64,000 bases of DNA from assembly GCF_900113605.1 (NCBI RefSeq), contig NZ_FOPY01000006.1:148416-212415 (forward strand), in the 5' to 3' direction. This stretch comes from Modicisalibacter xianhensis. Lineage in GTDB: Bacteria; Pseudomonadota; Gammaproteobacteria; Pseudomonadales; Halomonadaceae. The notes under the pieces are model-generated. The model saw only the letters and a program-made list of their open reading frames with translations, was not told the origin of the DNA and searched no databases. The position numbers and the translations under genes were made by a program. Below are positions 18,685-20,840 of this stretch, in pieces (within the stretch, counting starts at the first letter, position 1; each line of letters opens with the position of its first letter).

Positions 18685-19422
18685 ATGAACAATGACCGTT
18701 TGAACGCCGACGACCCGGGGCAGGATACTTCCACCGTGGCCGAGCCTCCGCGGCGCGGCATCAAGAGCTATGTGCTGCGTGCCGGTCGCATGACGGCAGC
18801 CCAGCAGCGTGGCCTGGACGAGGTCTGGCCGCAGCTGGGGCTCAAGCTCGAGGACGGCCTGCTGGACCTCGATGCGGTATTCGGCCGCCGCGCACCGCGC
18901 GTGGTGGAGATCGGCTTCGGCATGGGCGCCTCATTGATCGAGCAGGCCGAGACGCACCCCGATACCGATTTCATCGGCATCGAAGTGCACGCGCCCGGGG
19001 TGGGCAAGCTGCTCGACGAGGTTGACAAGCGCGGGCTGACCAACCTGCGCGTCTATCGTGACGATGCCCTGGAAGTGCTGACGCGCTGCCTGCCCGAGGC
19101 CAGTCTCGACGGCCTGCAGCTATTCTTCCCCGACCCGTGGCCGAAGAAGAAGCACCACAAGCGGCGTATCGTGCAGCCGGCCTTCGTGGAACTGGTACGC
19201 ACGCGCCTCAAGCCTGGCGGTACGCTGCACATGGCGACCGACTGGGAAGCCTATGCCGAACATATGGCCGAGGTCATGGCCGAGGCGCCCGGTTTCCGCA
19301 ATACCTCGTCCGAGGGTCCCTACGTGCCGAGACCTGAGTTTCGGCCCTTGACCAAGTTCGAGCATCGCGGCGCCCGGCTGGGACATGGTGTGTGGGATCT
19401 GATTTACCGTCGCAGTGAATGA
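18685..19422 (+). CDS. trmB: tRNA (guanine-N7-)-methyltransferase
   Basis: A 245-residue SAM-dependent enzyme that methylates G46 in the tRNA variable loop. SAM-binding [10 protein letters not shown] begins near 72, and [15 protein letters not shown] follows. The diagnostic [16 protein letters not shown] lies near 150. The first 30 residues (Asp-rich, PPRRGIKSY) match the longer gammaproteobacterial form. It is coupled to thiamine genes, as in Pseudomonas. A strong terminator follows. Confidence 0.95.
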
Positions 19423-19445
19423 AAGCCATACGCACAGGCGCTCAG

Positions 19446-19476
19446 GAGCCGCTCCCTTGGAGCGGCTCTTTTGTTT
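19446..19476 (+). terminator. Terminator of trmB
   Basis: 10-bp perfect stem GAGCCGCTCC-CTT-GGAGCGGCTC followed by TTTTGTTT. Its GCCGCTCC stem is the same as in the two sRNA terminators that follow on the other strand. Confidence 0.92.
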
Positions 19477-19510
19477 CACGCGGTATACCGATCGTGAGAT
19501 GAAAACATCA

Positions 19511-19577
19511 ATGGCAAAAGAAAGCCGCTCCAAGAGGAGCGGCAAGGACCGTGACTAGCTTGATGAGGAGAAACCAT
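19511..19577 (-). repeat. Direct repeat, copy 1 (sRNA core plus terminator)
   Basis: 67 bp that recur at 19732-19799 with 3 substitutions and one 1-base indel. The repeat spans the sRNA core and terminator but not the promoter or 5' stem. No inverted ends or transposase are present, so it looks like a gene duplication rather than a mobile element. Confidence 0.95.
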
Positions 19578-19628
19578 TAGCGGGAACCTGACTTCTCGCC
19601 GATGGAGTGCGATGTCTCGCGACATCGC
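19516..19628 (-). ncRNA. Candidate Fur-regulated small RNA, copy 1 (about 113 nt)
   Basis: A predicted minus-strand transcript. The promoter is TTGACG (19663-19658), 17 bp, TATCTT (19640-19635). The RNA would open with a 9-bp stem TGCGATGTC closed by a GCGA tetraloop (19629-19608). A probably single-stranded core CTCCTCATCAAGCTAGTCAC follows (19570-19551). It ends in the intrinsic terminator GCCGCTCC-TCTT-GGAGCGGC-TTTCTTTT (19543-19516). No credible protein frame runs through it. A Fur box fills the promoter spacer. Arrangement and pairing logic resemble RyhB/PrrF iron-sparing sRNAs; sequence homology to them was not tested. Confidence 0.75.
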
Positions 19629-19636
19629 AAATAAAA

Positions 19637-19655
19637 GATAATCATTATCATTAAC
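19637..19655 (-). promoter_or_regulatory. Fur box of sRNA copy 1
   Basis: GATAATCATTATCATTAAC on the plus strand; its complement matches the 19-bp Fur consensus GATAATGATAATCATTATC at 17 of 19 positions. It lies between the -35 and -10 elements, so iron-loaded Fur would block RNA polymerase. Confidence 0.85.
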
Positions 19656-19731
19656 GTCGTCAAGCGGCAACGCTAACTTTTTATGGAGCGAGAGAGTGCA
19701 AGGAGCGAGCCTGGCGGTACACAGAAAGGTG

Positions 19732-19799
19732 ATGCCAAAAGAAAGCCGCTCCAAGGGGAGCGGCAAAGACCGTGACTAGCTTGATGAGGAGATAACCAT
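19732..19799 (-). repeat. Direct repeat, copy 2 (sRNA core plus terminator)
   Basis: 68 bp, the partner of 19511-19577, starting 221 bp away. Differences from copy 1 are in the terminator loop, one base beside the terminator, one base at the outer edge and a single extra T before the core. Confidence 0.95.
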
Positions 19800-19866
19800 G
19801 GCAGGGAATACCGCGCGTACAGTATTCTCTGCGATGGAAAGTAGCGCCTGGCGAGCGCCACAACTT
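19737..19866 (-). ncRNA. Candidate Fur-regulated small RNA, copy 2 (about 129 nt)
   Basis: A second predicted minus-strand sRNA. The promoter is TTGACG (19897-19892) and TTTACT (19875-19870) with a 16-bp spacer. The 5' half differs from copy 1: it contains an imperfect stem AGAGAATAC/GTATTCCCT at about 19830-19804. The core CTCCTCATCAAGCTAGTCAC (19791-19772) is identical to copy 1. The terminator is GCCGCTCC-CCTT-GGAGCGGC-TTTCTTTT (19764-19737). A conserved seed with divergent 5' structures suggests duplicated regulators with shared targets. Confidence 0.73.
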
Positions 19867-19870
19867 CAAA

Positions 19871-19889
19871 GTAAATCATTCTCATTTGT
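19871..19889 (-). promoter_or_regulatory. Fur-like box of sRNA copy 2
   Basis: The minus strand reads ACAAATGAGAATGATTTAC, 12 of 19 to the Fur consensus, with the characteristic AATGAGAATGATT core. It covers the promoter spacer and the -10 region, as at copy 1. Confidence 0.68.
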
Positions 19890-19925
19890 CCCGTCAAGGT
19901 AAACGAGAATATTTTTTATTCGCCT

Positions 19926-20840
19926 TTATCCCGCCAGGGCTAGCCAGGCCGGCAGAGTCAACATGGCCAGCAGGGTTTGTCCGGTGATCAGCGCAGCCAT
20001 CAGCTCGGCATCGCCACCCAATTGGCGTGCCAGGATATAGGCCGATGTCGCGGTCGGCAGTGCGGCAAAGAGCAGAGCCACATCCCGGCTCACGTCATCG
20101 AGCCCCAGCAGGATGCCCAAGCCCAGGACCAAAGCAGGCATCAGTGCCAGCTTGATCAGGTTGGCGCTCAAGACGCCACGGTCTAGGCGCATCAGCGCAC
20201 GAGGGCGCAACGCAACGCCTACTGCGACCAGTCCCATGGGCAGTGCCGCGCGCCCCAGCAGCGTAATGGCATCGCCACTCCAGCCGGGCAGGCCGATATC
20301 GCTGAGATTGAGCGCAATGCCGACGACACAGGCCAGGATCAAGGGGTTGCGTATCAGTGCGGTGAGGCTCTTGCCGACACTCGATGAGCCCAACGTGCCG
20401 GCCGCCACGAAGCTTGCCACGCAGAACACGTTGACTACCGGGACCATCAGCGCCACCGCCACTGCAGCCACCGTGGCACCGGCCGACCCATGCAGCGCTG
20501 CGGCGCCGGCCACCCCGACATACGTATTGAAACGCAGTGCGCCCTGGAAAACCGAGGTAAAGGCTGCCGCCTCGAGACCGAGGCGCGCGCGCCAGCGCCA
20601 GAGCAGCAGGGCGAACAGGGTCATGCTGCCCAACAGGGCCAGGGCGACGCGAACCACCGGCACCTCGGCGACATTGGCCGTGGCCAGCGTGGACACCAGC
20701 ATGGCAGGAAACAGCACGAAGTAGATCAGGCGCTCGAGCGGCGGCCAGAACCCGTCGCCGGGAAAGCGACACGTGCCAAGTACGGCACCCAGCAGAATCA
20801 GCAGGAACAGTGGCCCCAGGGCGCTCTCGACGCCGGTCAT
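19926..20840 (-). CDS. AEC-family (auxin efflux carrier-like) transporter
   Basis: A 304-residue inner-membrane carrier with about 10 helices in two repeats of five. Family features are the N-terminal FLLILLGAVLG, the central NPLILACVVGIALNL and LPTATSAYILARQLGGD near the end. Bacterial AEC proteins export or import small carboxylates such as malate; the substrate here is unknown. An AGGAG site lies just before the ATG. The stop lies 29 bp before the -35 box of sRNA copy 2 on the same strand, with no terminator between. Confidence 0.87.
   Translation of the reverse strand: MTGVESALGPLFLLILLGAVLGTCRFPGDGFWPPLERLIYFVLFPAMLVSTLATANVAEVPVVRVALALLGSMTLFALLLWRWRARLGLEAAAFTSVFQGALRFNTYVGVAGAAALHGSAGATVAAVAVALMVPVVNVFCVASFVAAGTLGSSSVGKSLTALIRNPLILACVVGIALNLSDIGLPGWSGDAITLLGRAALPMGLVAVGVALRPRALMRLDRGVLSANLIKLALMPALVLGLGILLGLDDVSRDVALLFAALPTATSAYILARQLGGDAELMAALITGQTLLAMLTLPAWLALAG

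Follow-up and report, generated by a model that had tools for sequence, protein, structure and literature searches.

Two small RNA genes stand in tandem on the minus strand of the window (the whole 64-kb stretch of Modicisalibacter xianhensis DNA analysed here), and on the evidence of sequence alignment both are homologues of PrrF, lying outside the PrrF family as Rfam now delimits it. We consider it highly probable that they are prrF genes that would be induced when iron is short, through the release of Fur, and whose RNAs would pair with acnB and sdhC, lowering iron-rich enzymes. The original prediction was of tandem, Fur-controlled small RNAs on this strand: its layout has held, together with homology and conservation in relatives, while transcription and Fur control are read from the sequence.

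Two units with a common core

The upstream unit, first in transcription order, runs from promoter to T-tract over positions 19737 to 19897 (161 bases); the downstream unit, second in transcription order and called copy 1 in the original prediction, occupies 19516 to 19663 (148 bases). They score 138 and 145.6 bits, respectively, with R1, a model that we derived from 27 copies in the Halomonadaceae, the window's own family. R1 acts mainly as a sequence profile, since it was built with an imperfect alignment structure. Both units present the same order of parts: TTGACG, a Fur-like box, two predicted hairpins, an unpaired core and a terminator-like hairpin. The 23-base core, TCTCCTCATCAAGCTAGTCACGG, is identical in the two (19770 to 19792 upstream, 19549 to 19571 downstream, 221 bases apart), and blastn with the downstream unit as query aligns 67 bases of the second copy at 94%, in agreement with the repeats of 67-68 bases sharing a core that had been noted at this spacing. 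A hairpin and T-tract had also been announced after each copy, and the terminator scan finds terminator-like hairpins followed by TTTCTTTT in both (19745 to 19764 upstream, 19524 to 19543 downstream).

Ahead of the core, the predicted fold and pair counting give each unit a 5' hairpin, SL1, with eight pairs in the upstream unit (19841 to 19861) and nine pairs closed by a GCGA loop (a GNRA cap) in the downstream unit (19608 to 19629), and then a second hairpin, SL2 (19796 to 19837 and 19574 to 19605, respectively). The 5' parts were said to differ; they do so in sequence, not in architecture, because the upstream unit also starts with a hairpin.

A transporter gene (Pfam Mem_trans, 19926 to 20840, minus strand) lies directly upstream of the pair, and a convergent gene with the Pfam domain Methyltransf_4 (18685 to 19422, plus strand), which we take from reading to be trmB, lies downstream; both are conserved neighbours in relatives. 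The stem GCCGCTCC/GGAGCGGC is common to the two sRNA terminators and to a terminator-like hairpin that follows trmB (19444 to 19470).

Fur-like boxes and promoters

Scanned with a Fur consensus of 19 positions, the downstream unit carries a minus-strand site at 19637 to 19655 that agrees at 17 of 19 positions; it is the only site in the 64-kb window with three mismatches or fewer, against an expectation of 0.00 from 100 shuffles. The box of the upstream unit (19871 to 19889) agrees at 12 of 19, which is weak when taken alone. Both scores reproduce those first given. Among 81 related copies, 73 reach a score of at least 12 within their first 42 bases, and the mean of 12.7 compares with 9.0 in base shuffles, none of 200 shuffled sets being as high. 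A predicted Fur box over the promoter is thus supported in both units, the upstream one through its relatives. The promoter scan detected a sigma-70-like promoter, TTGACG-17-TATCTT, by consensus match for the downstream unit only (19635 to 19663), and the TTGACG hexamer can be read in both.

An element ATTC[TG]C[AG]T occurs just upstream of the -35 (19898 to 19942 in the window) in 55 of the 81 copies. By eye it resembles a second Fur box in some relatives, which suggests that two Fur sites may surround the -35 there. Some genomes carry prrF copies at distant loci (L245 and L246 in genome G090, L247 in G109), and at these loci the best Fur-like match lies upstream of the -35, not in the spacer.

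Have the two units remained redundant? The downstream copy, with its better box and a core start of UUUCUCCUC, could have acquired a different iron response or other targets, for example sodB, a classic target. The units do differ in their Fur-like boxes (17 against 12 of 19), in their hairpins and in the bases preceding the core, and the sodB leader of the window's genome carries GAGGAGAAA, which matches the downstream copy over nine bases and the upstream copy over seven. However, the cores are identical, and a reading of the sodB leaders of relatives (one core for all, long loops allowed) revealed no conserved complement. We regard such a divergence of roles as possible, though on balance unlikely.

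Distribution and copy number

With the downstream unit as query, blastn matched 139 of the 151 genomes of the window's family, and relatives keep the core and the promoter box as well as the fold and the terminator. R1 matched 149 of the 151, in 23 of 24 genera, a figure that is partly a matter of construction and that counts weak matches, such as those in genus g3. The two non-matching genomes are G018 and G094; together with the weak g3 matches, they may reflect loss or fast change of prrF. RF00444 detected 47 of 293 genomes across the order, in 25 of 119 genera, and none of 14 control genomes. The figure of 47 is a lower bound, since this model missed four family genomes that R1 matches (G010, G033, G047 and G058). 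Across the class, it found 3 of 369 genomes, all three in the window's own order.

Within the named genome collection, 69 stretches contain the exact 23-base core. Their titles mention Modicisalibacter, Salinicola, Chromohalobacter, Kushneria, Cobetia, Franzmannia, Onishia and Halotalea, all of which we take to be Halomonadaceae, and one stretch comes from an unclassified gammaproteobacterium. Of these stretches, cut at 8 kb, 50 of 69 have the transporter gene upstream in the same orientation and 51 of 69 have trmB downstream and convergent, with two further stretches showing the reverse arrangement for each gene. The closest named relatives by neighbour proteins are Halomonas sp. McH1-25 and Modicisalibacter luteus, with 89-92% in the transporter and trmB.

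Among the 149 matched family genomes, 107 have one match, 34 have two, seven have three and one has four. The 42 genomes with two to four matches include cases where the copies are not adjacent (e.g. G090) and cases where the second match is weak. In the named set, 11 of the 69 stretches hold two or more copies. M. luteus carries a single copy, which belongs to the first type, and McH1-25 and M. coralii have two; the upstream-unit orthologue in McH1-25 is 96% identical to the single M. luteus copy (L216). The McH1-25 siblings (L173) are 75% identical over the whole unit, compared with 95% for the P. aeruginosa PrrF pair, as given in the available part of PMC4211561. In two stretches (L233 and L191), the siblings are nearly as alike as each is to other species, whereas in two others (L172 and L199) each sibling is nearer to its counterpart in the other species. 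This difference in the pattern of resemblance is consistent with duplication on more than one occasion.

Larger arrays also occur. Genome G139 holds four tandem prrF copies (L237, 1248 to 1951); judged by eye, the Fur-like box survives in the first alone. Copies 2-4 are 183-base repeats that hardly differ from one another and have a different upstream sequence in common, so their expression may be constitutive or may depend on read-through. Five tandem PrrF-like units with the core CTCTCTCATCAAGCTAATCACGG are present in G399, which belongs to another family of the order (L053, 922 to 2213).

Does the tandem layout serve a third, longer RNA? In P. aeruginosa, the same layout is the source of PrrH, as described in the available text of PMC2851614, and the interrupted T-tracts (TTTCTTTT) of the tandem units would suit a comparable haem-responsive read-through product. 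Against this, the spacer between the units (19664 to 19736) appears by eye poorly conserved relative to McH1-25, the nearest relative, in which both units are nearly identical, and 107 of the 149 matched family genomes have a single match. A PrrH-like RNA thus gains no support from the spacer, and we judge it improbable.

Homology to PrrF

At the Rfam gathering threshold, the whole 64-kb window yields no match to any family. When positions 19420 to 19930 were searched with an E-value threshold instead, the PrrF model RF00444 aligned over its positions 1-150 with the downstream unit (75.1 bits, E 5.3e-13) and with the upstream unit (58.6 bits, E 2e-9), both below the curated cut-off of 90 bits. 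In the reciprocal test, R1 matched 12 of 12 loci that pass the Rfam PrrF cut-off (L032-L043, from family f21, presumably the Pseudomonadaceae), as well as 13 of 13 further loci of the order given to it. The core shares 21 of its 23 bases with the f21 loci passing the cut-off; it has AAGCTAGT where these mostly have AGGCTAAT, and elsewhere in the order, other genera and families have cores of a mixed type, such as AAGCTAATCACGG. Since RF00444 aligns whole-length to both units and R1 reciprocally finds the loci that pass the cut-off, we call the units PrrF homologues.

The original prediction had likened the layout to that of Pseudomonas PrrF1/PrrF2. The whole-length alignment, the reciprocity of R1 and the core, promoter box, fold and terminator conserved in relatives strengthen this likeness to homology. 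The two systems have in common the order of their parts, their tandem arrangement and acnB and sdh as likely targets, and they differ in that the window's units stay below the curated PrrF score and lie in another gene neighbourhood. RyhB and NrrF are Fur-repressed, iron-sparing RNAs that follow the same regulatory logic as PrrF. However, models for RyhB (RF00057) and NrrF are absent among the 11 matches obtained at E values up to 10 in 19420 to 19930. The available part of PMC4211561 likewise describes PrrF as having no sequence homology to E. coli RyhB. ArrF of Azotobacter vinelandii is presented as an iron-repressed PrrF homologue in the accessible text of PMC2851614, and we liken it to PrrF through that description, not through sequence.

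Could the resemblance have arisen by convergence, from Fur-controlled sRNAs of independent origin? Scores under the Rfam cut-off would agree with this, as would the finding of no common neighbours within 1.5 kb when the window's locus is compared with 25 loci from other families of the order. However, convergence would have to account for a whole-length RF00444 alignment, with an E-value of 5e-13 for one unit, for the 21 of 23 core bases shared with the f21 loci, for detection by R1 in the reverse direction and for the mixed-type cores (AAGCTAATCACGG) that other genera and families within the order have, and it seems very unlikely.

A conserved predicted fold

The two units give stability z-scores of -4.5 and -4.7, with none of 200 shuffles as good. 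When the downstream-unit fold is laid on a 27-sequence alignment, 91.8% of 679 cells are paired, a measure that favours the tested structure because this structure derives from one of the aligned sequences; both-sided changes are seen at 16 of 26 pairs, and for either count none of 500 shuffles is as high. Sliding the pair partners lowers pairing to 35-52%. For further pair types, one of five fold measures, 9 of 500 shuffles reached the observed value. These counts use the single-unit fold and pair counting in place of RNAalifold, whose consensus on alignment A2 was rejected for its wrong terminator pairing, a result of misaligned variable terminators. Conservation is concentrated in the promoter box, the paired bases and the unpaired core. 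As in PrrF RNAs, the core in the predicted fold lies unpaired between the hairpins and the intrinsic terminator.

That the repeat is protein-coding or a purely terminator-related duplication without RNA function is almost certainly wrong: a 96-codon open frame does cross the region and the hairpin after trmB does have the terminators' stem, but one-base indels that separate the copies immediately ahead of the core disrupt any frame they might share, in line with the statement of the original prediction that no coding frame explains the conservation, and this reading is contradicted both by where conservation falls and by compensatory base-pair changes.

Joint variation of the core and the acnB leader

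The best supported candidate target of the putative prrF RNAs is acnB. We searched 45 genomes, of which 42 gave a match (none in G015, G090 and G361) and 40 were used, G026 being left out for a missing core and G399 for another N-terminus; the G047 match is split by a stop and its leader was taken as it stands. The analysis rests on exact runs of complementarity between each genome's own core and a 38-base acnB leader that ends at the start codon. In 38 of the 40 genomes, a run of at least seven leader bases is perfectly complementary to the best core copy of that genome. The exceptions are G001 (five bases) and G007 (six); single extra copies fall short in G080 (six) and G139 (four). The window's genome itself has a match of 8 bases, not 10, and its relative G104 has one of seven.

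Cores differ among these genomes: CCTCATCAAG is found in 18, CCCTCTCATTG in eight, all of genus g11, CCTCATTG in six, all of genus g20, and CCTCATCAGG in six from other families of the order, with another form in two. The leaders differ correspondingly. The full 10-base CTTGATGAGG is present in 6 of the 18 genomes with core CCTCATCAAG, ATGAGAGGG in all eight g11 genomes with core CCCTCTCATTG, and CAATGAGG in five of the six g20 genomes with core CCTCATTG. On average, the longest match is always with the leader's own core type: 8.3 bases against at most 7.6 for other types in the CCTCATCAAG group, 9.2 against at most 5.8 for CCCTCTCATTG, 7.7 to 8.7 (for two g20 variants) against at most 6.7 for CCTCATTG, and 8.5 against at most 7.8 for CCTCATCAGG. 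Duplex energies also favour the own core type in all four main groups, by a small margin in two of them (-17.4 versus -16.6 kcal/mol for CCTCATCAAG leaders and -20.2 versus -19.9 kcal/mol for CCTCATCAGG leaders).

When cores were swapped among 22 genera, each represented by one genome, the observed mean was reached in 7 of 5000 permutations. A rerun gave 3 of 2000 for the acnB leader, and four control windows near acnB gave 408 to 1598 of 2000. Shuffled cores reach a mean of 4.7 bases compared with the 8.2 observed, with none of 1000 sets as high. These sequence comparisons support a joint change of core and acnB leader between lineages, unlike in the control windows; the signal comes mainly from two genera (g11 and g20), so independent events of co-variation are few.

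Other candidate targets

The start of sdhC reads CCGTGAAWAGY in 37 of the 40 genomes where it was read, G007, G015 and G016 being those without the N-terminal motif. Its pairing with GCUAGUCACGG or GCUAAUCACGG of the core is possible with at least one mismatch. As the site is partly coding and shows no co-variation, sdhC is only a suggestive second site for the 3' part of the core. For P. aeruginosa, acnB and sdhD are listed among PrrF targets in the available part of PMC6321483.

A search of the window's own genome for complements to 18 core bases with at most three mismatches returned only the two loci themselves (the control returned 2). The shorter GATGAGGA is found 3-11 bases before a start codon at 54 listed sites, most of them inside genes, versus five for a backwards control. 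These represent 51 distinct contexts, of which eight pass a filter requiring a frame of at least 60 codons and at most 25 open codons upstream. Ten proteins (the eight filtered plus two picked by eye) were compared with Pfam: three contain iron-sulphur clusters, namely AcnB, a [2Fe-2S] subunit and a Rieske oxygenase of the VanA type, five are of other kinds, and two gave no match. This tally, taken without a matched gene control, is only suggestive.

Proposed mechanism and implications

We propose that iron-loaded Fur would occupy the promoters and keep both prrF units silent as long as iron is abundant. When iron is short, both units would be transcribed into two RNAs of about 115-130 bases, a length deduced from where promoter and terminator lie. 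With the first two hairpins and the terminator formed, the core would stay unpaired and, presumably with the use of Hfq, could then pair through its 5' part (of the CCUCAUCAAG type) with the ribosome-binding site of acnB, encoding aconitase B, and probably through its 3' part (GCUAGUCACGG) with the start of sdhC, encoding a succinate dehydrogenase component. For acnB, blocked ribosome entry is the natural reading, because the GAGG of the ribosome-binding site falls within the complement. The outcome would be a lower synthesis of iron-rich enzymes.

A more specific view, to which we incline with some reserve, is that the core consists of two modules. The 3' module would have remained constant, like the sdhC start, throughout the order, and the 5' module would have drifted together with the acnB ribosome-binding site in two Halomonadaceae genera, which would thus amount to a natural experiment in which an iron-sparing RNA and its main target acquired compensatory mutations. 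The experiment would have been carried out on a background of recurring tandem copies, some of which (copies 2-4 of G139, judged by eye) have lost the Fur-like box and maybe escape iron control. The co-variation of core and acnB leader is sequence-level evidence for direct pairing and provides a ready-made experiment.

By sequence comparison, the present analysis adds an extension of PrrF through the family, recurrent tandem copies and a natural co-variation with acnB. The tandem prrF layout is described as exclusive to P. aeruginosa in the available part of PMC6321483, and as nearly so in those of PMC4211561 and PMC2851614. Contrary to these reviews, it recurs outside that species. In the window, the homologues are hidden by the Rfam cut-off. 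We found no description of a native PrrF in Halomonadaceae in the open-licence literature, including the accessible parts of PMC12164125, PMC12096840 and PMC13414033, which is consistent with the statement in the original prediction that no such pair was known in this lineage.

PrrF is thereby extended to nearly the whole sampled family of halophiles, some of which are used in biotechnology. A knock-down system based on PrrF1 is in use in Halomonas bluephagenesis and, in one account, includes the P. aeruginosa Hfq, according to the text available from PMC12164125 and PMC13414033. If a native PrrF is present in H. bluephagenesis as it is in the sampled relatives, it could compete or cross-talk with the PrrF1 tool.
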